Shown here piece after piece: positions 3,991 through 22,970 of a stretch of DNA of 64,000 nt. Numbering within the stretch: the stretch's first letter is position 1; each line of letters starts with the position of its first letter. The DNA lies in contig NZ_FCNY02000021.1 of assembly GCF_001544575.2 (NCBI RefSeq), positions 1 to 64,000 on the forward strand, in the 5' to 3' direction. Made by a program: the position numbers and the translations under genes. The notes beneath the pieces are model-generated. The model saw only the letters and a program-made list of their open reading frames with translations. It made no database searches and was not told the DNA's origin. Source of the stretch: Caballeronia cordobensis. GTDB taxonomy: Bacteria > Pseudomonadota > Gammaproteobacteria > Burkholderiales > Burkholderiaceae.

Positions 3991-5394
3991 TCAATGAGCA
4001 CCCGTCAGCTTTTCGAGAACCCGTGCTGTACGAGAGGGTTGGTTGGTTACACGTTCTTCGAAATCACTGAAGCCCGCCGCCGTGAGACCGCCATTGATGC
4101 CAATCCAGCGAAAAGGCTCCGGCTCCCAGGCCGGCGAGCGATGATTCACGACAGGCAACTGGTTGATCGCTTCTTCGCGATCGAGAATCAGATTGCGCAG
4201 GATGCGGCCTGCGAGGTTACTCGTGGCGACGCCATCGCCGACGTAGTTTCCCGCCCAGGCAATGCGCGCGTCTTTGTCCATGCTCACGGTCGGGCACCAG
4301 TCCCGTGACACCCCCAACGCGCCGCCCCAGCGATGCGTGATGCGGGCATCGGCCAGATGGGGAAAGAAGTCGAGCATCGCGGCGTGGATGTTGGCATGCA
4401 CCTTGTCGACCCGTTCATCCTCGGGTGCGATTCGGGAGCCGAAGCGGTAAGGCGCACCGCGACCGCCAAACACCAGTCGGCCTTCCGCCGTCACCTGTCC
4501 GTACACCCTGAGGTGACGCATGTCATTGAAAGCCAGGCGATGATCGAGCTTCAGCCGCTGGCGAAGCGCCTGCGGCAGTGGCTCTGTCGCCAGCACCAGG
4601 GAATAAAGCGGAATGACGGAACGGCTGTTCGAGGGCACCTGGCAGGAAAATGCCTCGGTGGCACGCACCACCGTCCTTGCCTTGACGCCGCCGTGTGCCG
4701 TGCTCACCCGTCCGGGCGCGATGTGGAGAGCGGCCGTCTTCTCGAAGATTCGCGCGCCCATCGCTTCGACAACGGACGCCAGTCCACGCACGAGCATGCC
4801 GGGATGAATCAGCGCGCAGTGCTCGGTGTAAAGGCCGCCCAGCACGCGCTCGGCGCCGATCCGCATCGAGGCTTCGTTCGCATCGAGCGCGCGCCATTGA
4901 TCCGGCAATCCAAAGCGAACCGACGCATCGACCGACGCTCGTATTCGATCGAACTGCGGCTGGCTGCGTGCAAGGGAAAGAAAACCTTGCTTCGCATAAT
5001 CTGCGTCGATGCATTCGAGATCGAGCACGCGCCCGATTTCGTTCACGGTCTCGTTCATCGCTGCCTGCAGATGCAATGCCGCGGCGTGCGAATACATGTG
5101 CGCCACGCGTTCGAGCGAGATCGGAAATATCGCCGACGCCCAGCCGCCGTTGCGGCCCGACGCGCCGAAGCCAACCGTTTCCCGTTCCAGCAGAACGACG
5201 TTTAGCGATGGCTGATCCTTCAGCAGATAGTAGGCAGTCCATAACCCCGTAAAACCCGCGCCGACGATGACGACATCGGCTTGCTCTTCCCGGGCCAGCG
5301 TTTCCCGCGCGGGCGCATCTTCATGCCACAGCGGGCGGTTCGGAAGTTGCGTCAGTTGTTTCAGCCGCGGATCGAGTTCCGTCCGGACAGGCAT
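3991..5394 (-). CDS. FAD-dependent amine oxidoreductase (gamma-glutamylputrescine oxidase-like)
   Basis: 467 residues of the DAO fold. The N-terminal FAD site is VVIVGAGFTGLWTAYYL, followed by the GASGRNGGW signature shared with PuuB/OrdL enzymes. The C-terminal region holds the second flavin contact WAGNYVGDGVATSNLAGR. Members oxidise primary or secondary amines to aldehyde and ammonia with H2O2. An AGGAGA ribosome site lies 8 bases before the ATG. It is followed directly by the cupin and binding-protein genes and preceded by pucR, so PucR is the likely regulator. The exact amine is not known. Confidence 0.88.
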   Translation of the reverse strand: MPVRTELDPRLKQLTQLPNRPLWHEDAPARETLAREEQADVVIVGAGFTGLWTAYYLLKDQPSLNVVLLERETVGFGASGRNGGWASAIFPISLERVAHMYSHAAALHLQAAMNETVNEIGRVLDLECIDADYAKQGFLSLARSQPQFDRIRASVDASVRFGLPDQWRALDANEASMRIGAERVLGGLYTEHCALIHPGMLVRGLASVVEAMGARIFEKTAALHIAPGRVSTAHGGVKARTVVRATEAFSCQVPSNSRSVIPLYSLVLATEPLPQALRQRLKLDHRLAFNDMRHLRVYGQVTAEGRLVFGGRGAPYRFGSRIAPEDERVDKVHANIHAAMLDFFPHLADARITHRWGGALGVSRDWCPTVSMDKDARIAWAGNYVGDGVATSNLAGRILRNLILDREEAINQLPVVNHRSPAWEPEPFRWIGINGGLTAAGFSDFEERVTNQPSRTARVLEKLTGAH

Positions 5395-7053: not shown

Positions 7054-7821
7054 TCAAAGACACTTCAGCACGTCACCCGGCCGAACGAACCGATAGGACT
7101 CGGTAATCAGGCCATCTACTTTCAACTGTGCCCTTCGTTCCTCGGCCTGCTGTCTGATGTCGTCCGTGACGTTAACATTCAGCTCGGCTTGCCGCGGCGA
7201 AAAATCAGGATCGCCCTCTTTGACCGGAACCGCAGATTTGCTCATTTGAGCGACGCTCTGATCCGACAACTGAGTCGGTCTGATGACGCGTTGCACATCG
7301 CGCTCGCTGCGACGATTGTTGCTCCTGATCGTGAAGTCGTGATTTGCGATCCTGCCTGTAGGGCTGTACATCACCGAAGTGACCAAACGGTCCAACGCGC
7401 AGTCCTCTTCCTTTCTGCGATGTGTGATGTCGCGCCTGGGACGCTCGGGGATAGCCAAGCGCGTGATGCCGCGATCGTTGATCGCACCCAACACATCACG
7501 ATGATCCTCCAACACACACACCTCGCGGCGTGGCGGCCAAAAATCGAAATTGCCATGGCCGCCCCACCAATCGCCGACGTGGATCGCAAAAATCTCCGGA
7601 TAGATTCTGCGTTCGGTTCGCCGGACGGGCTTGGCGTCATAAAAACACATACAGGCCATTTGGATTAAATGGGTTGCACCCAGCAAGGCCAGCGGCTCGT
7701 ACACCACAATTCCAAAGCGGTCGTGCGGATTCCAGTCGGGAAAGACATCCCGTGCGGTTGCCGCCTTTCCGGCAACCTCGACTTCATAGAAGTCGGAACT
7801 CAATGCGTCGATCACATGCAT
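7054..7821 (-). CDS. Conserved-looking protein of unknown function in an electron-transfer operon
   Basis: 255 residues from the ATG at 7821, which has a GAGGAG ribosome site; a longer reading frame upstream overlaps the ferredoxin gene and is unlikely to be used. I do not recognise the family. It is soluble and rich in aromatic and acidic residues, with a striking core (EIFAIHVGDWWGGHGNFDFW) containing two His and several acidic or aromatic residues that could form a ligand or metal site. The C-terminal 60 residues are charged and probably helical. It starts 14 bases after the Rieske ferredoxin stop, so it is translationally linked to the ferredoxin and reductase genes and may be their partner. 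Confidence 0.75.
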   Translation of the reverse strand: MHVIDALSSDFYEVEVAGKAATARDVFPDWNPHDRFGIVVYEPLALLGATHLIQMACMCFYDAKPVRRTERRIYPEIFAIHVGDWWGGHGNFDFWPPRREVCVLEDHRDVLGAINDRGITRLAIPERPRRDITHRRKEEDCALDRLVTSVMYSPTGRIANHDFTIRSNNRRSERDVQRVIRPTQLSDQSVAQMSKSAVPVKEGDPDFSPRQAELNVNVTDDIRQQAEERRAQLKVDGLITESYRFVRPGDVLKCL

Positions 7822-7835
7822 GGCTGCTCCTCGGC

Positions 7836-8159
7836 TCAACTCAGATTGTGCGTTTGACACTGGACCTCGTCGCGCAGCACCCGAACCGGGTACGTCTGCA
7901 GCCCACACTCGGCGGGGCCTTCGAGCAGCGCTCCCGTTTCGATATCGAACCGCGCGCCATGGAGCGGACATTCGATTTCCTTGCCTTCCAGCCATCCGTC
8001 GGACAGCAAGGCATACGCATGGGGACACACGTTATCGGTCGCAAAGTAGCGGTCTTCGACCAAATAGATGGCAACCGCCTTGTTGCCTACCTCGGTGGCA
8101 AATGCGGTATCGGGTTTGAGATCGCTAACCCTGCATACGGTAGTCCAGTCTTCGTTCAT
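7836..8159 (-). CDS. Rieske [2Fe-2S] ferredoxin
   Basis: 107 residues of a stand-alone Rieske fold. The cluster ligands are visible as CPHA (C-x-H) and CPLHGARFD (C-x2-H), 16 residues apart. Such ferredoxins carry electrons from a flavin reductase to an oxygenase. The upstream gene on the same strand encodes a ferredoxin reductase and the downstream gene an unknown protein; no oxygenase alpha subunit is in this operon. The nearest oxygenase-like gene, at 13.9 kb, lacks its own Rieske motif. Confidence 0.93.
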   Translation of the reverse strand: MNEDWTTVCRVSDLKPDTAFATEVGNKAVAIYLVEDRYFATDNVCPHAYALLSDGWLEGKEIECPLHGARFDIETGALLEGPAECGLQTYPVRVLRDEVQCQTHNLS

Positions 8160-8214
8160 CGGAATGCATTCTCCTTAAGGTATGTCACGAGTTCGATATT
8201 CGCCTGCGACGCCG

Positions 8215-9414
8215 TTATAGCGCAGCGACAGGCATTGCAGATGTGTACTGCGACGGAAGCGGTGTGCCTCGCTTGATGGCACGTTTGATCGCCGATACGT
8301 CTCGCCCGCTATTGGCTGCGATAGCGTTGACCAGTCGGTCTTTTTCGTCCCAGCCTAAAAGCACCCACTGGTTCGAAGCAGAGTCGCCAAGCAAGGTGCG
8401 CTTCGAAGCGATCTCCGGAAATCCCAGACACTGGATATTGCTGCCGAACTGATCGGACCAGAGCCACGGCATCTCCGCGTACGCCGCTGACGCGTCGCCC
8501 GCCGCGGCTCGCCCGGCCACCGTGCCTTGTTCGCTCGCAGCCATCCAAGACTCCGATCGCGTGTGAATGCCCAAATGCGCCACCGGGTAGCGGGTCACTT
8601 CACCCGCCGCGAAGATGTTGGGATCCTGCGTTGCGCACCGTGGATTAACCACGATCCCGTTCTCGACGTCCAGTCCGCAGCGGCGCGCAAGCTCATCGTT
8701 CGGCACCACGCCAATGCCCACGATGACGATATCGGCGTTCATCTTGCCTTCGGATGTATCGAGCACAACCTTCCCGGACGCTGTGCGTGAGATTCGTTCA
8801 ACCTGAGTACCCAGCAGGACAGCGACGCCTCGAGAGACGTGAAGGTTGAAGATCCACTCGCTTAGCGTGGTGCATCCCGTCCGTGCCAGCACATTCGGCT
8901 GCGCCTCCAGAACAGTCACCTTGCAGTTTCGCTGTCTCGCCGCCGCCGCAACCTCGAGGCCGATAAAGCCGCCTCCAATGACGACGACATCCGAACCATC
9001 GGCGAGCCGGCTTCGAAGCGAGATTGCATCTTCGAGTGTTCGCAGATAGTGCACGGGTTCTTGCGCAATGCTTTCCGGCAGTCTGCGCACGCGCGAGCCC
9101 GTCGCGATGATGAGTTTGTCGTAAGGAACATCGCGCCCGCATTCGAGCGAAGCGCGCGCGTTATGCCGGTCGATATCGACGACATTCGCTCCATCGATGG
9201 TCGTCACGCGCGGATCGCCATACATGTCAGCGCCCGAGAGGTACATGGGTTCGACGCGATCCGTCAGAAACGCTTTCGACAGATGGGGGCGGCTGTACGG
9301 TGTCTGGCGCTCGGACCGCACGATCGACACCCGAGCGTCAACGCGCATTTCAACGATGCTTCTTGCAGCCTGGTGCGCGGCGGTTCCGCCGCCAACAATC
9401 ACGAAGTGCTCCAT
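8215..9414 (-). CDS. FAD-dependent ferredoxin reductase
   Basis: 399 residues of the Pyr_redox_2 type with a C-terminal reductase domain. FAD binds at FVIVGGGTAAHQAA and NAD(P)H at VVVIGGGFIGLEVAA. The second flavin contact is PNIFAAGEVTRYP. It resembles reductases of dioxygenase and P450 systems (about 400 residues) and should pass electrons from NADH to the adjacent Rieske ferredoxin. It is first in its operon, with a MocR-like regulator divergent 103 bp away and an inverted repeat between them. Confidence 0.9.
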   Translation of the reverse strand: MEHFVIVGGGTAAHQAARSIVEMRVDARVSIVRSERQTPYSRPHLSKAFLTDRVEPMYLSGADMYGDPRVTTIDGANVVDIDRHNARASLECGRDVPYDKLIIATGSRVRRLPESIAQEPVHYLRTLEDAISLRSRLADGSDVVVIGGGFIGLEVAAAARQRNCKVTVLEAQPNVLARTGCTTLSEWIFNLHVSRGVAVLLGTQVERISRTASGKVVLDTSEGKMNADIVIVGIGVVPNDELARRCGLDVENGIVVNPRCATQDPNIFAAGEVTRYPVAHLGIHTRSESWMAASEQGTVAGRAAAGDASAAYAEMPWLWSDQFGSNIQCLGFPEIASKRTLLGDSASNQWVLLGWDEKDRLVNAIAANSGRDVSAIKRAIKRGTPLPSQYTSAMPVAAL

Positions 9415-9461
9415 ATGCCTCGCTCCCTGTAGTGCTCGACCTCACTTTAGTAAATTGCACT

Positions 9462-9504
9462 CTGTACTACAATGCACACATTTTCGCGATTTCGCGTAGT
9501 ACAG
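9462..9504. promoter_or_regulatory. Inverted repeat between ferredoxin reductase and mocR genes
   Basis: Perfect 9-bp arms CTGTACTAC (9462-9470) and GTAGTACAG (9496-9504), 25 bases apart. ATTGCAC (9454-9460) and AATGCAC (9471-9477) add a direct repeat nearby. The site lies 12 bases before the regulator's start codon and about 50-90 bases before the reductase start. It is a good candidate for autoregulation and control of the reductase operon by the MocR-like protein. Confidence 0.6.
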
Positions 9505-9516
9505 ATGGGAGAGTCT

Positions 9517-10923
9517 ATGGAGCGCTTCAGGCAGGTCGCGGAACTCGTCAAGAAGCGCCTCGATTCAGGACTGATTCGACCCGGCGATAAGCTTCCATCC
9601 TTGCGGCGGCTTGCGGAGGAAACGGGCTTCAGCGTCGTCACTGTTTATAAAGCCTATGAGTTGCTCGAATCTCAGGGCATCTGTGCGTCACGCGACCGGT
9701 CCGGCTTCTACGCGCTGAAGGCACCGCAAAGGGATGCGCAGCGACGAGCCCATGCCTTGCCCGTCATGTCTCCCGATAACGTCCGTTCGCTCGACGAGGC
9801 GTTCGCTTCCCGGGTGCCATTCCACGCGAAAGCATCCGCCATGATGCTCCAGGCGGGTGAGAGCCTTGCGGACCCGATTCTGCGCAAGACCTTCCGGCGC
9901 GCCCTGCTCGAGACTCCTTCGCGAAGCGCCGACATGATGGGCGGCGATGCAGAGCTCAGAACCGCAATCGCTCGCCGCGCGGCGCAGAGAGGTATTCACG
10001 CGTCACGCGATCAGGTCGTCGTCACGCGGTCCGCGATGGAAGCCTTCAACCTTTGCCTCGACAGCTTTTCCACGAACAATCGTCCGGTTCTCGTCGAGAG
10101 CCCTTCGTTCTATCCGATCCTCGAGAGCCTGCGCCATCGCCAGATCCAGGCGATCGAGATCTATTCGCATCCCGAGTTCGGCATCGACCCCGGGCAATTC
10201 GAACATATCCTCGAGACGACGGGCGTGAAGCTCAGCGTGCTGACGGGGGCGAATCGCATCCCAACGGGTATGACATACGATCGGGAAACCTCGAGACGCC
10301 TCGTTCAGGCGGCTGAGCGGCACGGCGCAGTCATCATCGAAAACGCCATCAGCAGCGAACTGACCTACGGTGCGCTTAACGCCTCTACGCTGAAAGAGTT
10401 CGATCGTTTCGACACGGTTATCCAGTTCGGAGGAACTGCATCGACGCTGTCCTCCAACTATGAAATCGGCTGGATACTTGGGAACGAACAACGCGCGGCG
10501 AGGATTCTGGCGAGTCAGCAGCTTAGTGGTTTGAACATGCCTCATCGCGCCTTGCAAGCAGCGTTGGCCAGCTATCTCAACAGCCGGCTGGCCGAACGTC
10601 ATACGCGTGCGAATTGCCAGTTCCTGGCCGAACGCATGAAGCAGGGGCTTGAACTGATGCGGGCAAGCTTTCCGGAACAAACCGCGTTTTGCGAGCCCAG
10701 CGGCGGCTTCATGTGCTGGGTAAGAGGCCCCCGGCACTTCGATCCAATGAAGCTGGCAATGAGCGCCGCAAAGGACGTTTTCGATTTCATCCCTGGCCCG
10801 TTCTTTTCGCCGGCAGGTGCCTTCCGGAACTTCCTGGCGCTCAATTTTTCGGGGGACTGGACGCAGTCTCGGAGAAGGAAGCTCATTCGACTCGGTGAAT
10901 GCCTTCGAGGCGACCGTCAATGA
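9517..10923 (+). CDS. MocR-like GntR regulator with degenerate aminotransferase domain
   Basis: 468 residues from the ATG at 9517, which has a GGGAGAG ribosome site; earlier in-frame ATGs lie inside the inverted repeat region. The N-terminal GntR winged helix (about 1-70) contains LPSLRRLAEETGFSVVTVYKAY. The rest has the fold-type I aminotransferase layout, but key residues are changed. The position of the PLP-binding lysine is Ser309 (ASTLSSNYEIGW, against SFSKSLTAAYRIGW in the second MocR of this window). The carboxylate-binding arginine is Ala441 (NFLALNFSG). It may sense a ligand without PLP. It is divergent from the ferredoxin reductase operon. Confidence 0.88.
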   Translation: MERFRQVAELVKKRLDSGLIRPGDKLPSLRRLAEETGFSVVTVYKAYELLESQGICASRDRSGFYALKAPQRDAQRRAHALPVMSPDNVRSLDEAFASRVPFHAKASAMMLQAGESLADPILRKTFRRALLETPSRSADMMGGDAELRTAIARRAAQRGIHASRDQVVVTRSAMEAFNLCLDSFSTNNRPVLVESPSFYPILESLRHRQIQAIEIYSHPEFGIDPGQFEHILETTGVKLSVLTGANRIPTGMTYDRETSRRLVQAAERHGAVIIENAISSELTYGALNASTLKEFDRFDTVIQFGGTASTLSSNYEIGWILGNEQRAARILASQQLSGLNMPHRALQAALASYLNSRLAERHTRANCQFLAERMKQGLELMRASFPEQTAFCEPSGGFMCWVRGPRHFDPMKLAMSAAKDVFDFIPGPFFSPAGAFRNFLALNFSGDWTQSRRRKLIRLGECLRGDRQ

Positions 10924-11869: not shown

Positions 11870-12442
11870 TCAATCCCCATACTTGAATTTACTGCGGGAG
11901 AATAGCTTTCTCACCATCGGCTCGAAGAACTCCAATGGCAAGGTGTCGTAGTCGGGGTCAAACGACACTTGGTCCCAGTTTTCGCACCAGTCAACAGCCC
12001 TCTGATAAAGCGGATGATCCCGGTATCGGTCGCGCAGGTTCCGGTCCCGCCCGATGTGGTGGTAGTAGTAGTACCCTTGAAATATGGCGTGATGCTTCAG
12101 TATCCAGAGGTTGTCATCAGAAATGTACGGCCTCAAGATGGCAACGGCCAGCTCACAATGATTTTCGGGCGCCAAGGTGTCACCGATATCATGCAAGAGC
12201 GTCATCACAATGGTGTCTTCATCGGCGCCATCCCGATACGCTCGCGTGGCCGACTGAAGCGAGTGTTCATATCGGTCGATCTTGTAGCCGACTCGGTCGC
12301 CTTTCAGCTTGGCGAGTAAGCCCAGGACACCGTCCGCGAGGTCGAGGAAGAGTGGCTCGAACTTTCTTTCTAAGAATTGATATTCCTCTTGCGTACCTTG
12401 ATCCATTCGGGTGAATGAGACCGTGTCGTTGATGATCGCCAT
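11870..12442 (-). CDS. HD-domain protein, PhnZ/MIOX-like
   Basis: 190 residues. Metal-binding HD motifs are visible: RYEHSLQSA, LLHDIGD, ENHCELA, ILKHHAIFQ and a late WDQVSFDP. This spacing of His, HD, His, His and Asp resembles the mixed-valent diiron oxygenases (PhnZ, TmpB, myo-inositol oxygenase), which cleave or hydroxylate at a carbon next to a heteroatom; some relatives are plain phosphohydrolases. Its place between the AroE-like gene and the porin of a betaine locus makes an oxygenase acting on a small amine-containing substrate attractive, but this is inference. A GGAAG ribosome site precedes the ATG. Confidence 0.75.
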   Translation of the reverse strand: MAIINDTVSFTRMDQGTQEEYQFLERKFEPLFLDLADGVLGLLAKLKGDRVGYKIDRYEHSLQSATRAYRDGADEDTIVMTLLHDIGDTLAPENHCELAVAILRPYISDDNLWILKHHAIFQGYYYYHHIGRDRNLRDRYRDHPLYQRAVDWCENWDQVSFDPDYDTLPLEFFEPMVRKLFSRSKFKYGD

Positions 12443-13889: not shown

Positions 13890-15038
13890 TCAAATTCCGT
13901 GCGCTGCCATTCTCCGCGTGTACCAGAGTGCAAATTTCTCCAGAAACACCTCGGTGTGTTTCGAGTACGGACCCGGCTGGTATCCCGGATCCTGCGTTCC
14001 GGCATGATTCACCTGCATGAATCTCGCATCGGCGGCGTTTGTCGCTTTCCAGACTTCGGTGAGTTCTTCCAAGTCGTAATCGACACCTTCTACAGCCTCC
14101 GCGTGAACCAGCCACTTCGTCCGAACCAGTGTCGTGTCCGGGCTTAACGGAATGCAGAAAGTGATAACCGCGTGGTCGATCATCACGTGACTCCACGAAC
14201 TGTGAGTCCACAAGTGGGTGCTTCCCAGATCTCTGCGAGCAGACTCGCCTAGCAGTTTTCTGGACGCAACTCGTGTCGTCATGGTCTGGGACTCGCCGGC
14301 TCCGATGATCACCTGTCTCTGCGCGCGGAACATGGTGGGTTTGTCCCCATCCATCTCGTCGTGAACGCTATGAATGAGGCCGTCTTCTTCCCAACTGGCT
14401 ACCTGGCGTCGAGTCCGCGCTTCGAAATCTTCGACCTCCAGCCGCTCTTGTTCGGTGAGGTCATCAACGGAGAAGCCTAGATCCGCGGACGACAAGCTCA
14501 CGAGAAGTTCGGGGTGCCCACCCTTGCAGTGGTAGCACTCGCGGTTATTTTCGATAACGAGCTTCCAGTTTCCCTGTTCGATGACGTCAGTCTCAAAGGC
14601 CACTTTCGCGTCTTCGAGGTGAAAAGGCGCCAGCCGCGGAGTCATGACTTCTTGGAGTCTTTCAATGTCCCCAGGCGGGGTGTCCGCCAGACAGACGAAC
14701 AACAAACCACCAATGTTTCGAAGGTGGACAGAGTTCCGGCTTCGGCATTGGTGGTCGAAGTCCTTGCCCATATGCGATGCGTGCTTGCGGAAAGCACGAA
14801 TTGCACCATCGTCGTCACAAACGACTAACACTGACGCCTTACCTACATCGATCGCCGAAACATCTCCCGGTTCCGGAACATCGGCTGCTACGCCGACCAT
14901 GATCCAGTGCTGATGGAAGATGACATCGATGTCGTTCTGAAAAATGTCTTCCCGACCATAAAGCTCGCTGGCCATGCTATGGCCCAACCGACGTGAATCG
15001 AGCAATTCCCGATGTGACTTTGCGAACCCAACGCTCAT
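13890..15038 (-). CDS. GbcA-like oxygenase alpha subunit lacking the Rieske cluster segment
   Basis: 382 residues from the ATG at 15038, preceded by GGGG. The catalytic half is intact and very like glycine betaine monooxygenase GbcA: NWKLVIENNRECYHCKGGHP carries the two iron-binding His (170, 175), TKWLVHAEAVEGVDYDLEE follows, and NAADARF provides the third ligand region. The N-terminal half lacks the usual CRH-x(n)-CPYHQW motif. After GAIRAF (residues 79-83) the chain goes straight to SHMGKDF, the point that in GbcA lies about 40 residues further on. GbcA proteins are about 420-430 residues, so the length fits an in-frame loss. Either it is inactive, or it takes electrons differently. Confidence 0.85.
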   Translation of the reverse strand: MSVGFAKSHRELLDSRRLGHSMASELYGREDIFQNDIDVIFHQHWIMVGVAADVPEPGDVSAIDVGKASVLVVCDDDGAIRAFRKHASHMGKDFDHQCRSRNSVHLRNIGGLLFVCLADTPPGDIERLQEVMTPRLAPFHLEDAKVAFETDVIEQGNWKLVIENNRECYHCKGGHPELLVSLSSADLGFSVDDLTEQERLEVEDFEARTRRQVASWEEDGLIHSVHDEMDGDKPTMFRAQRQVIIGAGESQTMTTRVASRKLLGESARRDLGSTHLWTHSSWSHVMIDHAVITFCIPLSPDTTLVRTKWLVHAEAVEGVDYDLEELTEVWKATNAADARFMQVNHAGTQDPGYQPGPYSKHTEVFLEKFALWYTRRMAAHGI

Positions 15039-15104: not shown

Positions 15105-16586
15105 CTACTTCAGGTACCAGCCCCACGGCTCGCCGGACACGTATGCAGTAACCTGCTTCGTCTCAAGGTAGTTCTCGAAGCCCCACCTGCCAAGTTCGCG
15201 GCCAATGCCGGACTGCTTGTAGCCGCCCCAAGGTGCCTCGGTGAATGACGGCTGCGAACAATTGACCCAAACCGTGCCGGTTCGTAGCGCAGCGGCGACC
15301 CGCTCAGCACGCTTCGTATCTTCCGTCATCACAGCCGAGGCAAGTCCGAACCGGGTGTCGTTTGCAAGCGAAATGGCCTCCTTCTCGGATGCGAACGGGC
15401 GCACGCAAACGACAGGACCGAAGATCTCGTCAAGCCATGCAGAACTGGTCAACGGCACATCCGTCAGGATGGTGGGTTCAAAGAAGTAGCCAGCTTCGAG
15501 CCCTTCAGGGCGCCCGCCGCCCGTCAGGATCGTCGCACCGTCCGCGACGGCCTTTTCGACCGCAGCCGTGACACGCTGATGCTGAAGCTCCGACACGAGC
15601 GGGCCGAGAAGCGTGCCCGCTTGCAGACCATCTCCGATCGAGATCTTTTTGGCCTCAACGACCAGGCGATCGATAAAGTTCTGATAGATCCGCTCGTGCA
15701 CCAGCACACGTGACGTCGCGGAGCACACTTGACCTTGGTTCCAGAAAATGCCGAACATCACCCACTCCACAGCTTTGTCCAGATCGCTGTCCTCGAATAC
15801 GAGGAATGGGGACTTACCGCCGAGCTCCAGGCTGACCCGTTTAATGTCTTTCGCCGCCGCTGCCATGATTTTGGAGCCTACTGCTCCAGAGCCGGTGAAT
15901 GCCAATTTGTCGACCATCGGATGATCGACCAGTGATTGACCGGCATCGGCTCCGAATCCGGTCACGACATTCAGCACGCCGGGCGGCAGATCCACCTCTT
16001 CAGCAATGCCCGCGAGTTCAAGTGCGGTAAGCGATGTCTGCTCTGCCGGCTTGAGCACCACCGTGCATCCCGCCGCAAGTGCGGGTGCGACTTTCCATGC
16101 AGCCATTAGCAGCGGGTAATTCCAAGGGATGATTGCGCCAACCACGCCCACCGGCTCACGCATTACCTTCGTTTCGAATCGGGCATCGGGCAGCGTGATC
16201 GATTCACTCCGATTGTCGTCAAACTCCTCGGCCATCCTGGCGTAATACTCGAAGCAATAGGCAGCGTCGCCAATATCCCACTCGGCTTCCGGCCGCGGCT
16301 TGCCATTGTCCCGTACTTCAGTTTCGGCGATAGCGGACAAGCGGCCGCGTATCACCTCGGCGATACGACGCAGATATCGCGCACGTTCTTTACCGGAAAG
16401 ACGTGGCCAGGAACCCTCATCGAACGCAAGACGCGCTGCGCGAACTGCGTGGTCGACGTCTTGAGCAGAGGCCGCCGAAATCGTATGGAAAACTTTGCCA
16501 TCGGCCGGGTTGAACACCTCCAGCTTGCCGCCTAGAACCGGCTGAACCCATCGTCCGTTGATGAAAAGAGCATCTCGCAAGTTCAT
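15105..16586 (-). CDS. Betaine aldehyde-type NAD(P) aldehyde dehydrogenase
   Basis: 493 residues, full family length. The catalytic cysteine is in NQGQVCSATSR and the general-base glutamate in VSLELGGKSP. IIPWNYPLL and the FTGSGAVG turn form the cofactor site. NQGQVCSATSR resembles betaine and aminoaldehyde dehydrogenases. In this locus it could oxidise an aldehyde from amine oxidation, or a semialdehyde such as alpha-ketoglutarate semialdehyde if the DHDPS-like enzyme acts as in hydroxyproline breakdown. It lies between the transporter permease and the oxygenase genes. Confidence 0.92.
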   Translation of the reverse strand: MNLRDALFINGRWVQPVLGGKLEVFNPADGKVFHTISAASAQDVDHAVRAARLAFDEGSWPRLSGKERARYLRRIAEVIRGRLSAIAETEVRDNGKPRPEAEWDIGDAAYCFEYYARMAEEFDDNRSESITLPDARFETKVMREPVGVVGAIIPWNYPLLMAAWKVAPALAAGCTVVLKPAEQTSLTALELAGIAEEVDLPPGVLNVVTGFGADAGQSLVDHPMVDKLAFTGSGAVGSKIMAAAAKDIKRVSLELGGKSPFLVFEDSDLDKAVEWVMFGIFWNQGQVCSATSRVLVHERIYQNFIDRLVVEAKKISIGDGLQAGTLLGPLVSELQHQRVTAAVEKAVADGATILTGGGRPEGLEAGYFFEPTILTDVPLTSSAWLDEIFGPVVCVRPFASEKEAISLANDTRFGLASAVMTEDTKRAERVAAALRTGTVWVNCSQPSFTEAPWGGYKQSGIGRELGRWGFENYLETKQVTAYVSGEPWGWYLK

Positions 16587-16687: not shown

Positions 16688-17533
16688 TTACGACAACGCG
16701 AGGAAACGCTTTGGGATCGAGCTCCTGAATACACGATCCAGCACGAGAGCCAGAATCACGATAGCGAGGCTCGCCCGCATTCCCAGACCGAACTCCATCC
16801 GTGAAAGGCCGCGCGTGACTTCCGCACCAAGTCCACCGGCCCCAACCAACCCTGCGAGCACAACCATTGCAAGAGAGAAGAGAACGCATTGGTTGATGCC
16901 GACCAGCAAAGTGGGCATTGCCGAGGGCAATTGAATCTTCCAAAAGATGGTCTTCTTCGTCGCGCCTATCGACGTACCGAGCTCAATCCGATTCTCCGGG
17001 ATCTGACTCATCGCCAGAATCGTCAATCGGATCATTGGCGGAATCCCATATACGATTGTCGAAAGCAATGCAGGCACGACACCTAACCCGAACAAGATGA
17101 CGGCCGGAACCAAATACACCCAGGGCGGCATCGTTTGCATCATGTCCAGAATCGGACGGGCGATGATTTTGAGTCGCTCGCTTCTGGACATGAGAACGCC
17201 TAGCGGCACGCCTACCAGAACCGAGAAAATCACCGACAGGAGAATCACGACAATCGTCTGCAGCGTGGCGGCCCACATGCCGATTAGCAAACACAAAGCC
17301 AATCCACCGGCGCACAGCAGTGCTCCCCGCCATCCGGCGATACACAGAACGAGTACGGACAATGCGCCGATCGTGACCAACGGCGGTGCGAACGACAGCA
17401 CATATACGACCGCTGAGATCAGCGTGCCAAAGACATCGGAAACTGAAGCGAAGAAGCTGTGATGGTTCATGTTGAGCCAGGACACGACTGGCGCGACGGC
17501 CGCGCCCGGAGACACATGTATCAAGTCAATCAC
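16688..17533 (-). CDS. Glycine betaine/proline-type ABC transporter permease (ProW-like) 1
   Basis: 281 residues with about six membrane helices and the BPD_transp_1 domain. The cytoplasmic coupling loop reads AMSQIPENRIELGTSIGAT. Its start overlaps the stop of the second permease by 4 bases, indicating translational coupling. With the second permease, the ATPase and the OpuAC-type binding protein it completes a ProU/OpuA transporter. Two different permeases suggest a heterodimeric channel. Confidence 0.92.
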   Translation of the reverse strand: MIDLIHVSPGAAVAPVVSWLNMNHHSFFASVSDVFGTLISAVVYVLSFAPPLVTIGALSVLVLCIAGWRGALLCAGGLALCLLIGMWAATLQTIVVILLSVIFSVLVGVPLGVLMSRSERLKIIARPILDMMQTMPPWVYLVPAVILFGLGVVPALLSTIVYGIPPMIRLTILAMSQIPENRIELGTSIGATKKTIFWKIQLPSAMPTLLVGINQCVLFSLAMVVLAGLVGAGGLGAEVTRGLSRMEFGLGMRASLAIVILALVLDRVFRSSIPKRFLALS

Positions 17534-18372
17534 CGCACACCTCCTTGTCGCCGCTGCCCCATCCGTTGCGTCAATCGGTCTAGTACGATCGTGACAACCA
17601 CGATCGCGATGCCGGCATTGACGGCCTTATCCATCTTCAACAATCTGACCGCGTCATAGATTGCCTGTCCTAACCCACCCGAGCCGGCAATGCCCGCGAT
17701 GACAACCATTCCGAAACTCAACATGAGGCTTTGGTTCACACCCGTAAGAATCGACGAAAGCGCGAATGGAAGACGAATCTTGAACAACAGTTGGGTCGAT
17801 GTCATGCCGACAGCGAGCCCCAACTCGTTGAACTGGGGCGGCGTCATTCGCACACCATGAGCAGTCAGACGCAAAGCAGGCGGAATAGCGACGATCCATG
17901 TCGCCCACATTGCAGTCGGCGGTCCGTATCCAAGCAGAGCGATGCCGGGTAGCAGATAAATATAAGGTGGCATGGTCTGTATGAAGTCGAGCACGACGTC
18001 GAAGCTTCGCACAAAGCGGGTCGTCAATCCGAGCGCAACACCCAGCGGAATTGCCACGATTAACGCCAGAAACGTAGAGCTGAAGACCAATGTCAACGTG
18101 CTGATCGTCTCGGGCCAGAGCCACATCGCTTCACAAAGCCAAAGCCCAAAGAGCGCGGCCAGAGCGAAGACGCGACCGATGAACAGCCACCCCGTCACTG
18201 CCACAACGAGGACCAGAACCCACCATGGGACGGCGATCAATAGTGCATTGAGACCTTTGAAGGTTCCGTTAAGCACGAAACTGAGGCTGTTGAACGCCGT
18301 GGTCGCGTGGTCCGTTAGCCATCCCAGACTATTGTCGACAACACTGTCGAAGCCTTCGGTAAAGTCAATCAT
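17530..18372 (-). CDS. Glycine betaine/proline-type ABC transporter permease (ProW-like) 2
   Basis: 280 residues, BPD_transp_1 domain, related to the neighbouring permease but distinct. The coupling loop is GVRMTPPQFNELGLAVGMT and the helix LTLVFSSTFLALIVAIPLGVA is typical of ProW. It overlaps the next permease by 4 bases and follows the ATPase gene by 42 bases. Confidence 0.92.
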   Translation of the reverse strand: MIDFTEGFDSVVDNSLGWLTDHATTAFNSLSFVLNGTFKGLNALLIAVPWWVLVLVVAVTGWLFIGRVFALAALFGLWLCEAMWLWPETISTLTLVFSSTFLALIVAIPLGVALGLTTRFVRSFDVVLDFIQTMPPYIYLLPGIALLGYGPPTAMWATWIVAIPPALRLTAHGVRMTPPQFNELGLAVGMTSTQLLFKIRLPFALSSILTGVNQSLMLSFGMVVIAGIAGSGGLGQAIYDAVRLLKMDKAVNAGIAIVVVTIVLDRLTQRMGQRRQGGVR

Positions 18373-18414
18373 TGCGTGGACCTCTCAGTCGCTGTTTGGA
18401 CGCCCGTCACTGGC

Positions 18415-19497
18415 TTACTCCGCAGCGCGCGTGGCGCACAACAGGTTCTCACGGCTTACCATTCCGACGATCTGGCCGTTTCGTTCGACCGCCAACCTTT
18501 CCGCACACTTGGCGATCGACAAATCAATCATTTCCTCGAGATTTGCGTTGATGTTCACCGTGGGGTATTCCGTGACGGTCACGCTGGATCCGCCGTGCGA
18601 CACCTCGGCCAACACAGGCTGCATGACGGAATGAGCCTTGACGAGTTTGAGACGCGAGACGCCTTCCATGAAATCTGCGACGTAAGAGTCGACAGGGTGC
18701 AGTGCGATTTCTTCCGGCGTGCCGATCTGAATAATCCGCCCCTCGCGCATGATCGCGATGCGGTCCCCGATGCGAATCGCTTCCTCGATATCGTGCGTGA
18801 TGAAGATGGTTGTTTTTCTAAGCTTCGTGGACAGTTGCTTGAATTCGATCTGCAACTGCTTGCGAATCAGCGGGTCAAGCGCGCTGAACGGCTCATCCAT
18901 GAGGAGCACGTCAGGCTCAGCGGCAAGCGCCCCTGCAATACCGACACGTTGCTGCATCCCGCCGGACAGCTCACGTGGGAAGCGATTCGCCCAATTTCCG
19001 AGACCGACGGTGTCCAGCGCAGCCTGACTGCGACTTCGCGCATTCGCGGAGGATTCGCCCTGGACCTCTAGCGGCAGCATGACGTTTTGCAAGACAGTGC
19101 GATAGGGAAGCAATGCGACCTGCTGAAATACCATGCCGATGCATCGGGAGCGAAGCGCGCGAAGCTCCGTGTTCTTCAGCTTGCAGATATCCTTACCACG
19201 GACAACGACCTCGCCGCTCGTCGGTTCGATCAAGCGGTTGAAGTGCCGAATCAGCGTGGATTTTCCGCTTCCTGACAAACCAATAATGCAGAAAGTTTCG
19301 CCTTCGCCGACCGAGAACGAAGCATTGGCCACGGCCGCCACGCAGCCGAATTTCGCCAGGAGCTCGTCCTTGTTATAACGGCCGCTCTTGGCCGCTTCGA
19401 GGGCAGCTGAAGTCTGGCTACCGAAGATCTTCCATACTCCGCGGCATTCCACGGCGGTTGCCTGCTTCACGTGGGGAAGTTCGTTCATCATGTTCAT
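18415..19497 (-). CDS. Glycine betaine/proline-type ABC transporter ATPase (ProV-like)
   Basis: 360 residues. Walker A is GLSGSGKST, the signature LSGGMQQRVGIAGAL and Walker B VLLMDEPFSALDPL, with the switch His in FITHD. The N-terminal 45 residues before the Walker A (SQTSAALEAAKSGRYNKDE) match the ProV extension. A single CBS-like region follows residue 280, shorter than the tandem CBS of E. coli ProV. CBS domains in this family gate transport by ionic strength; the short form may be catabolic rather than osmotic in use. Confidence 0.93.
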   Translation of the reverse strand: MNMMNELPHVKQATAVECRGVWKIFGSQTSAALEAAKSGRYNKDELLAKFGCVAAVANASFSVGEGETFCIIGLSGSGKSTLIRHFNRLIEPTSGEVVVRGKDICKLKNTELRALRSRCIGMVFQQVALLPYRTVLQNVMLPLEVQGESSANARSRSQAALDTVGLGNWANRFPRELSGGMQQRVGIAGALAAEPDVLLMDEPFSALDPLIRKQLQIEFKQLSTKLRKTTIFITHDIEEAIRIGDRIAIMREGRIIQIGTPEEIALHPVDSYVADFMEGVSRLKLVKAHSVMQPVLAEVSHGGSSVTVTEYPTVNINANLEEMIDLSIAKCAERLAVERNGQIVGMVSRENLLCATRAAE

Positions 19498-19577
19498 ACG
19501 TCCATCCGAAGTCGGAGAAAACTCGTCGGAATGACCGCCGGCGATGACGCCATGCCGGCGTCATCGCGGCCCGCGCA

Positions 19578-20429
19578 TTAGTTGTTCGACAGCACCGACC
19601 ACCTGTTGATGAGGTCAGTGTGGTCCTTCCACCATCCATCGATAGCCTGATCCATAGTCTTGCCTTCATTCACCGCGGTATTCATACGGGTGATGTCGTC
19701 AATCGGCACGAACATGCTTGCCATCGCTTCGCGCGCGCGAGGATTCGCCGCAGACCAACCTTTCTTGGCAATCCAATAGTAGGTCTGCGGAGGCGGATAA
19801 ACATGCTTCGGGTCTTCGAGGTATTTGACCTTGAACTTCTGGTCCATCCACGACGGCTGCCACAGCATGGTCACGATGGGTTGTTTTCGCTCCATCGCCG
19901 ACTGGAGTTGAGCAATCATCGCTGCCGTACTCCCTTCCACGAGTTGATACTGCAGGCCGTACTGTTTCACGGCGTCCGCCGTTTCTTGCATCACCCCTGT
20001 CCCGGCTTCGATCCCGATGATTTTCCCGCCAACCTGATCCTTGATCGAATTCAACTGTTCGATCGAGTTAATCGACATGTAAGCAGGCACAACAAGACCT
20101 TGCCGAAGACCGTGGGACGCAGTGGAAACCTTTTCCATCCGGTCCTTGTTTCGCTTCCAGTAGTCCGCGGTGACATAGTTGATATGTGAAACCATGAGAT
20201 CAACATCACCGCGTGACAACGCGCTGAAGGCGATGCCCCAATCCGCGAATGTCGTGACCTGCACCGTAAAGCCCTGCTTTTCCAAGAACCGCTTGGCGAT
20301 GCCTGTCAGCGGTACGGTGTCCTCCCACGGTAGCGTGCCAATCTTGACGACTTTATTGTCGGCCGCACTGACGTTAAGAGCGAAGCTCAACATAAGCGCG
20401 CCTGCGAGCATCTTCCAAAACTTACGCAT
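19578..20429 (-). CDS. Glycine betaine/quaternary amine ABC substrate-binding protein (OpuAC family)
   Basis: 283 residues with a signal peptide ending VSA before ADNKVVKIGTLPWEDTVPLT. The ProX/OpuAC fold is recognisable from the repeated Trp/Tyr positions (FADWGIAFSAL, VTADYWKRN, MLWQPSWMD, TYYWIAKKGW) that form the aromatic cage for trimethylammonium groups in this family. It is located upstream of the ATPase and permeases. The ligand is probably a betaine; which one cannot be read from the sequence. Confidence 0.9.
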   Translation of the reverse strand: MRKFWKMLAGALMLSFALNVSAADNKVVKIGTLPWEDTVPLTGIAKRFLEKQGFTVQVTTFADWGIAFSALSRGDVDLMVSHINYVTADYWKRNKDRMEKVSTASHGLRQGLVVPAYMSINSIEQLNSIKDQVGGKIIGIEAGTGVMQETADAVKQYGLQYQLVEGSTAAMIAQLQSAMERKQPIVTMLWQPSWMDQKFKVKYLEDPKHVYPPPQTYYWIAKKGWSAANPRAREAMASMFVPIDDITRMNTAVNEGKTMDQAIDGWWKDHTDLINRWSVLSNN

Positions 20430-21393: not shown

Positions 21394-22743
21394 TCAAACT
21401 TCAACGCCTGCCTTTTTGAACCGGCTGCCCGTGACGAACTTGACCCCAAGCGAAGTAATCAGAGTCGGGTAAGCTCGGCTGGGCGGCGTCTTCGTCTTCA
21501 AGATGTCGATCGACCGCGAACGCATGCCGGCGGCCAGCTCAGCGACGGCCTTACCGAACGCGGTGCCGCGAGCAATGCCTGTCCCATTGCAGAACGCTGC
21601 GCCGTATACATTCGGTGCGAGCTCGCCCCACGCCATGCCACCGTTTTGCGACAGGGTCAGCAATCCGCCCCAACTCGCTTCAAAACCCATTTTGGAGAGT
21701 TCAGGCCACCGGCGATCGAAAGACACCTGTTGATGTTTTCTCGCACTCATCACATCGTCGATGGTCGTCTTGAAGTGCGTGGCATACGAGTACACGTTGC
21801 GCAGATACAGCCGGTTGTCGAATGTCCGTCGCACGGTTGTGCCGAAACTGTTCGCAGGAATCAGCCCGTAAGTCTGGTGGCTCCCCACCGACGCAAGCTC
21901 CTTTTCAGTCAACGGACGCGTCATGCTCGCGAACGTATAGACCGGAATCGCGGAGTTCGGGAAGAAGCCAAAGTTCTGCAGATAGCCTGCTGTGCAGATA
22001 ATCACTTTGTTGGCTTTGATGGTCCCGGCAGCGGTCTCGAACAGATGATGCGAATTGCCGAACAACGCAGACCGCACCGCAGTGTTTTCGTAGATCGTCA
22101 CGTTCGAGGGCAGCTTGCGCGCGGCATTCTTCAAATACTTGGCGGGTTGAATCAATACCGTACCCGGGTGATGCAATGCCTTGATGTAATGCTTGCTGCC
22201 CGTGATATCCTGCATTTCCTCACGCTCGACCCAACTGTATTTCTGCCCTAGACGATCAAGCGCTTTTGAGAATTCCACCAGGTCTTGGACGCCGGACGAA
22301 GAAGCTGCGCTGTGATACTTTCCTTGCGGATCCCAGTCGCAGTCGACGCCCAACTCGTCGACTGCGCTCTTGATATAGGCAATGCCTTCGGTATTCACAT
22401 GCAGTTCGTCGCGATTCCCCTGGTCATCTTCGACAAAGTCGCGCTTGCGGGGGTTGTGAGCCAGGTCAATCGCAAATCCCATGCACCGGCCGGACGCGTT
22501 GTTGCCGATGCGACCGGCATCCACGAGAATCACTTTCGCCTGCGGGCGGAGCTCCGCATATCGGCGTGCCGCGTGCAGTCCCATCCAACCGGCACCAATG
22601 ACCAGACACTCGCACGACACGTCGCCTTCCTGAGCCTTCAACGGTAAAGCGGGACCGGATGTTAGATACCATCCCGAATCCGTCGGCTCAGTCCGCGGCG
22701 GTTCCACCGTGATGCGTTTATGCAAATTAGGTACTGCAGCCAA
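21394..22743 (-). CDS. FAD-dependent amine/amino acid oxidoreductase (DAO family)
   Basis: 449 residues if translation starts at the TTG at 22743, which has GAGGAG 7 bases upstream; an in-frame ATG at 22785 has no such site. FAD site CLVIGAGWMGLHAARR, then VDAGRIGNNASGRCMGF, the DAO family signature. It probably dehydrogenates a secondary amine or imino acid formed after demethylation. It is first in a long minus-strand series (lyase, binding protein, ATPase, two permeases, aldehyde dehydrogenase, oxygenase) and has operator copy A upstream. Confidence 0.88.
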   Translation of the reverse strand: MAAVPNLHKRITVEPPRTEPTDSGWYLTSGPALPLKAQEGDVSCECLVIGAGWMGLHAARRYAELRPQAKVILVDAGRIGNNASGRCMGFAIDLAHNPRKRDFVEDDQGNRDELHVNTEGIAYIKSAVDELGVDCDWDPQGKYHSAASSSGVQDLVEFSKALDRLGQKYSWVEREEMQDITGSKHYIKALHHPGTVLIQPAKYLKNAARKLPSNVTIYENTAVRSALFGNSHHLFETAAGTIKANKVIICTAGYLQNFGFFPNSAIPVYTFASMTRPLTEKELASVGSHQTYGLIPANSFGTTVRRTFDNRLYLRNVYSYATHFKTTIDDVMSARKHQQVSFDRRWPELSKMGFEASWGGLLTLSQNGGMAWGELAPNVYGAAFCNGTGIARGTAFGKAVAELAAGMRSRSIDILKTKTPPSRAYPTLITSLGVKFVTGSRFKKAGVEV

Positions 22744-22970
22744 GATAGATCTCCTCGAAACAAAAGCGCGTCGAAGTACGTACAACTAAGTTGTTTAAAT
22801 TCAATACGATCGCCGATCCAAGATCGCTAATTCACTCGCTCAGCAGCAACGGACGAGTTTCGTCGTGCTTATTCCAACCCCTGCTTGTGTGGTTGTGTAC
22901 TGCCGCCAATCGGTTGGCTAGCAGAGTCCCCGTTGCATCCGTCGTTTTGTTGATTTGAAGATTAGGCTCG

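Follow-up and report, generated by a model that had tools for sequence, protein, structure and literature searches.

In the Rieske oxygenase CntA, the catalytic iron lies 44 Å from the cluster of its own subunit but 12.2 Å from that of the neighbouring one. Electrons cross between subunits, from cluster to iron, via a bridging Glu, E205, and the E205 mutants made in that study were inactive (PMC7948474). A CxxC pair is a mark of some Group V members (PMC10952381). These two CntA reports are the basis for the roles that we give below to the bridging Glu, the CxxC pair and the iron ligands. Open-licence papers searched with fixed terms, in part by title and the start of the abstract, yielded no Rieske-less oxygenase.

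The gene described here lies in a 64,000-nt stretch of Caballeronia DNA (the window). Its ORF runs on the minus strand from an ATG at 15038 to a stop codon ending at 13890 and encodes 382 amino acids; an alternative in-frame TTG upstream of the ATG would give 386. In a Pfam search the catalytic domain PF00848 scores 95.7 bits against a cut-off of 24.9, and the catalytic half, with its NNRECYHC and HPE motifs, is like that of betaine monooxygenases, as a first-pass annotation of this DNA had recognised. By contrast, the Rieske domain PF00355 is matched over positions 1–50 of 88 only and at 18.8 bits falls below its cut-off of 20.3, whereas all six full-length relatives tested score 60.8–72.8 bits and match from position 1 or 2 to positions 79–83. 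The name GbcA, taken up in that annotation, is overly exact: on the NCBIfam GbcA model NF058607 the protein reaches 305.6 bits, far under the curated cut-off of 670. Because six complete relatives (L002, L003, L004, L015, L024 and L027; 6/6 tested) likewise stay under this cut-off, at 374–499 bits, we call the subfamily GbcA-like, not GbcA. These matches and the alignment below identify a gene for a GbcA-like (Group V) Rieske monooxygenase, an alpha subunit from which the cluster-binding segment is missing. Its substrate is probably of the quaternary-ammonium type, judging from the family and from the betaine-type transporter of the cluster. An AlphaFold2 model of the 382-aa protein, built on a 5-row alignment, is of low confidence (mean pLDDT 39.1).

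The limits of the missing segment were defined in an alignment of 39 rows, the window protein and 38 distinct relatives, which were left of 53 loci once an E-value limit of 1e-60 had been applied and identical sequences had been dropped. Between R84 and K85 the window protein lacks 36 residues relative to 36 of the 38 relatives and 37 relative to the other two; the extra segment ascribed to GbcA proteins does exist, but the size first given for it, about 40 residues, does not hold. In the 12 relatives compared, the absent block starts at N-x-C-R-H-R-G and ends after CPYHxWTYxLxGxL. The motif CRHRG...CPYH, with the C-x-H and C-x2-H ligands of the Rieske [2Fe-2S] cluster, is present in 38/38 relatives and absent from the window protein, confirming the observation from which the work started. 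The block removed is exactly the excursion with the cluster-binding loops, nothing more, and the iron site is untouched. The gap is also the sole sizeable indel relative to the 38 relatives: over residues 8–382 the remaining gaps of the window protein come to one column, filled in 3/38 relatives, and six columns near the C-terminus, filled in 2/38. The description of an in-frame deletion with an otherwise clean remainder is borne out as well. A relocated copy of the segment was sought in the window with a C-x-H-R-G DNA pattern allowing at most one mismatch. Five matches were found, each carrying a single mismatch, where chance alone would give 2.9, and at least five occurred in 19 of 100 shuffles; relocation within the window is rejected, the matches being at chance level.

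The catalytic site is complete. E163 with NNRECYHC up to residue 171, H175-P-E177 and D337 (encoded at 14028–14030) are identical in the window protein and in 38/38 relatives. We take E167 to be the bridging Glu and H170, H175 and D337 to be the iron ligands, an assignment made partly from general knowledge; the 2-His-1-carboxylate ligands and the bridging acidic residue are all present in the window protein. The CxxC pair beside the iron site, C168 and C171, is likewise shared with all 38 relatives. Four residues near the junction, H86, H89, H96 and C98, had been regarded as residual and as possible ligands of another metal. H86 occurs in 33, H89 in 38 and C98 in 34 of the 38 full-length relatives, and H96 is uncommon. 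Three of the four are thus standard in complete relatives, and a new metal site is not supported; by their distribution, H86, H89 and C98 are ordinary family residues and not leftover cluster ligands. The window protein keeps 84 of 91 family-invariant residues; in 37 of the other 38 rows 0–3 such residues are lost, and the distant relative L027 has lost 7 of 98.

Table 1. Features of the oxygenase locus, with positions in the window
Feature	Position	Strand	Evidence
GbcA-like Rieske oxygenase alpha subunit without cluster-binding segment	13890..15038	-	ORF, Pfam/NCBIfam, alignment
Deletion junction; R84 codon (14787-14789) abuts K85 codon (14784-14786), 36 codons absent	14784..14789	-	alignment
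Catalytic-iron motif NNRECYHCKGGHPELL, residues 164-179 (E167, C168/C171, H170, H175)	14502..14549	-	conserved in 38/38; roles by alignment, CntA papers and, in part, presumption
Aldehyde dehydrogenase, betaine-aldehyde-dehydrogenase-like, below the cut-off of that model; upstream, 66 bp before the oxygenase start	15105..16586	-	profile search
Choline/betaine-type ABC transporter: two permeases, ATPase, binding protein	16688..20429	-	profile search and ORF inspection
Rieske ferredoxin (7836-8159) and FAD-dependent reductase (8215-9414), 4.5-6 kb downstream; candidate electron donor	7836..9414	-	profile searches

Is the gap shared? The query being without the block, a relative that shares its gap would align unbroken, and a complete relative would split or start past the gap. 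Among 398 family genomes, with about four candidates scored per genome, 82 places matched at E ≤ 1e-100, one being the window itself; all 81 others begin at query residue 77–85. We read 32 of these 81 in full and found the motif in 32/32, and the remaining 49 were judged by their start position. The genus search (58 genomes) gave nine other genomes at E ≤ 1e-120, all beginning at residue 80–84, and the class search (369 genomes) had matches at E ≤ 1e-70 in the own genome alone; these large searches scored roughly four or five candidates for each genome. Four relatives with 43–50% identity, found among GTDB contigs by a search that needs exact 8-residue words, all have the full motif. On plasmids, 253 records match, and 60 of them, sampled across the ranking, were compared for length: all 60 are longer by 22–36 codons (44 by 30–36 and 16 by 22–29), none being equal to the query stretch. 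The 22–29-codon group consists of distant relatives with 27–36% identity, and its shorter excess is presumably due to other length changes. The genus, family, class, GTDB-contig and plasmid samples examined contain no second Rieske-less case, so that the search in other genomes suggested by the first-pass annotation found the gap in no relative examined. Identity to the closest relatives does not exceed 61% in the genus and family samples or 60% on plasmids. Nearest by tree path (1.14–1.17 for the best five) are full-length Caballeronia homologues, L015–L022, which are 59–61% identical over the catalytic part and, unlike the window protein, carry the full CRHRG...CPYH Rieske motif. The neighbours of L028 and L030, from the same Caballeronia group, differ from those in the window, and no cluster of betaine ABC transporter and aldehyde dehydrogenase genes was seen in their flanks.

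To date the loss, we compared substitution in the two parts of the protein. The end branch leading to the window protein is long, 1.01 changes per site where the median for end branches is 0.029 (0.46 over all columns with a simpler model), and the split from the sampled relatives is therefore old. On a fixed tree, the window branch was measured once on the 76 Rieske-domain columns that remain and once on 264 catalytic columns, with 40 bootstraps. Relative to the rest of the tree, it amounts to 0.075 in the Rieske remnant (5–95% range 0.026–0.112) and 0.111 in the catalytic columns (0.077–0.132). Pairwise identities agree: the remnant exceeds the identity that catalytic divergence predicts by 4.5 points on average, and the other rows range from -4.0 to +3.0. 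Within the family, dN/dS has a median of 0.096 (116 pairs drawn from 25 chosen sequences, with dS restricted to 0.1–1.2); at a value of about 0.10, a sequence freed of constraint should drift about tenfold faster, and even one tenth of the window branch spent unconstrained should show. Since the remnant shows no acceleration relative to the catalytic domain, its loss of the cluster segment is probably recent, a dating in which the rates give us moderate confidence. Pointing the other way, changes are slightly more frequent in the remnant at strictly conserved sites (2/16, against 5/73 in the catalytic domain; p = 0.60) and at sites conserved at the 90% level (6/35 and 14/111; p = 0.57), but neither difference is significant. 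Folding or trimer cohesion could constrain the remnant and thus mask an older loss, and some of the seven lost invariant residues could be adaptations to life without a cluster.

These data make it likely that one recent in-frame loss of 36 codons occurred in a GbcA-like gene of a cluster for betaine-type uptake and aldehyde oxidation and probably inactivated it. The gene would have encoded a complete, working enzyme for nearly all its history since the split from the sampled relatives; 108 nt would then have been lost in a single recent event, in this lineage or strain. By analogy with CntA, no electron would reach the catalytic iron from the adjacent subunit via the bridging Glu once the cluster is missing. 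The receiving side is kept and the donor is gone; without it there should be no normal reduction, and NADH-driven turnover has probably been abolished. Folding and the binding of iron and substrate may be preserved in the protein, too little time having passed for visible decay. The first-pass annotation had offered a choice between a recently disabled enzyme and one fed by a separate Rieske protein. The former gains support from a gap that is unique among the relatives examined and a remnant as constrained as in complete relatives, with CntA as the model for the presumed disablement.

Alternatively, the gene in the cell may be complete and the 108 nt may have been dropped from the draft by an assembly or base-calling error. 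The genome is a draft of 74 contigs, the gap is seen in no other genome examined, and an artefact would look exactly as observed, with a remainder like a working enzyme and an undecayed remnant. However, the loss is a multiple of three with a clean join, and an assembly should seldom leave out 108 unique bases in frame where there is no repeat. The genome is rated at 99.97 for completeness and 1.05 for contamination. We regard an artefact as unlikely.

The genes around the oxygenase supply the candidates for a substitute electron source. Within the transporter, the ATPase scores above the cut-off of the proV model and below that of the choline ATPase model, and the binding protein stays below the cut-offs of the choline/ProX models; the permeases were named by eye from their ORFs and from their similarity to each other and to genome G015. 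Downstream of the oxygenase lie genes for a porin, a PhnZ-like HD protein and a shikimate-dehydrogenase-like protein and, further on, past an opposite-strand MocR-type regulator, for a ferredoxin reductase and a Rieske ferredoxin. A cognate flavin/2Fe-2S reductase of the GbcB/CntB type adjoining the oxygenase was not found on the window's contig, where the ferredoxin/ferredoxin-reductase pair is present instead.

Two further genes of this region deserve mention in their own right. The PhnZ/TmpB-like HD protein (11870–12442, minus strand) is weakly similar to known oxygenases and has an 87% identical copy in G015, less than 7 kb from a betaine-type cluster; by its sequence it is possibly a member of an unrecognised HD-type oxygenase subfamily. 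A 255-aa protein (7057–7821, minus strand) has no Pfam match at E ≤ 0.001. Its homologues on Paracoccus yeei and Terrarubrum plasmids, 39–43% identical, adjoin catabolic or ABC-transporter genes in the two plasmid records examined.

Could the ferredoxin stand in for the lost cluster? In a working Rieske-less oxygenase, the ferredoxin encoded at 7836–8159 would dock in the place vacated by the domain and feed the iron via E167. There is a precedent for the geometry in CARDO, whose ferredoxin docks where two oxygenase subunits meet (review PMC12445004). The iron site and the bridging Glu are intact, the Rieske ferredoxin and its reductase are encoded in the neighbourhood (the ferredoxin 5.7 kb from the oxygenase), and the own-genome search listed no other oxygenase on C45, the contig of the window. 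Of the seven family-invariant residues that have changed, three lie no more than four positions from the ligand D337. However, three Mesorhizobium plasmids, which represent one genus and are perhaps not independent, also have the MocR-reductase-ferredoxin module, and no GbcA-like oxygenase was detected in the 19–21 kb read there. The reductase has no close copy in the genus (best 44%), the genus, family, class, GTDB and plasmid samples yielded no other Rieske-less relative, and the Rieske remnant shows no sign of a long life without a cluster. Docking of this ferredoxin thus appears very improbable, and the second of the two outcomes proposed initially, a variant that draws on a separate Rieske protein, is not supported. 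In a wider version, the catalytic trimer would have been kept while the Rieske ferredoxin encoded nearby, or H2O2, took over from the internal cluster, yielding a split Rieske oxygenase; we judge this to be improbable also, if marginally less so. The divergent module itself, with regulator, reductase and ferredoxin genes, spans 7836–10923 and is 37–49% identical to the three Mesorhizobium plasmid copies.

Elsewhere, the own genome contains three other full-length GbcA-like genes (contigs C50, C58 and C38). A GbcB-like query gave ten matches at E ≤ 1e-20, none on the window's contig and the best on C23 and C38; on C38 the GbcB-like reductase gene directly follows the GbcA-like gene, and another lies on C23. 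With such oxygenase and reductase genes elsewhere, betaine use by the strain would not have to depend on the window gene. The three paralogues are 46–55% identical to the window protein in the best-matching piece, and mixing of subunits with them, or service as a substrate-binding sink, would give the protein a non-catalytic role. Conserved catalytic ligands are unexpected for such a role, which we hold to be most improbable. The least credible of the alternatives is a peroxide shunt, in which H2O2 from nearby FAD-dependent amine oxidases (21394–22785 and 3991–5394) drives the protein: CntA can use H2O2 to oxidise its substrate when NADH and reductase are absent (PMC10952381), and two DAO-family flavoproteins are encoded in the window, but the CntA shunt is an in vitro result, H2O2 production by the DAO proteins is deduced from their family alone, and no Rieske-less relative was found that would indicate selection for a peroxide mode. 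Both routes, ferredoxin docking and H2O2, are conceivable, but nothing in the sequence speaks for either.

Genome G015 has a related cluster (64–87% protein identity) with the transporter, both DAO-type flavoproteins, a cupin, a DapA-like protein, aldehyde dehydrogenases and, 6.5 kb on, the HD protein. On the 74 kb of its contig C31 that were read there is no GbcA-like oxygenase, and the three GbcA-like genes of G015 are all on other contigs. At the position that the oxygenase occupies in the window, after the first aldehyde dehydrogenase, C31 (L058 to L044) has a second aldehyde dehydrogenase copy and the DAO/cupin genes.

The sequence evidence suggests a recent loss, probably inactivating, rather than a new kind of oxygenase. 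If so, the gene offers a tidy natural deletion of the cluster-binding loops alone, and the truncated protein could serve to find out if a Rieske oxygenase deprived of its cluster still folds, binds iron and uses H2O2. Were it a true split enzyme, electron delivery would be separated from oxygen activation in Rieske oxygenases, the electron entering the bridging Glu straight from a diffusible Rieske protein. The gene also carries a warning for annotation, since the good score of its catalytic domain could get it named a betaine oxygenase. As one gene in one Caballeronia genome, its interest is modest unless biochemistry reveals activity.

Among solved structures, the best relatives are 3n0q, 3vca and 4qup, which match residues 87–376 of the window protein; we take 3vca and 4qup to be Stc2, the stachydrine demethylase. 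With GbcA and Group V the window protein has in common the catalytic domain, the NNRECYHC...HPE motif, the CxxC pair and the third, Asp ligand, but it is without their cluster-binding segment. The sequence match to CntA (6y8j) is weak and covers residues 86–179. CntA has a complete Rieske domain and a dedicated reductase, CntB; the bridging Glu and the CxxC pair, which have been studied biochemically in CntA, are both present in the window protein.
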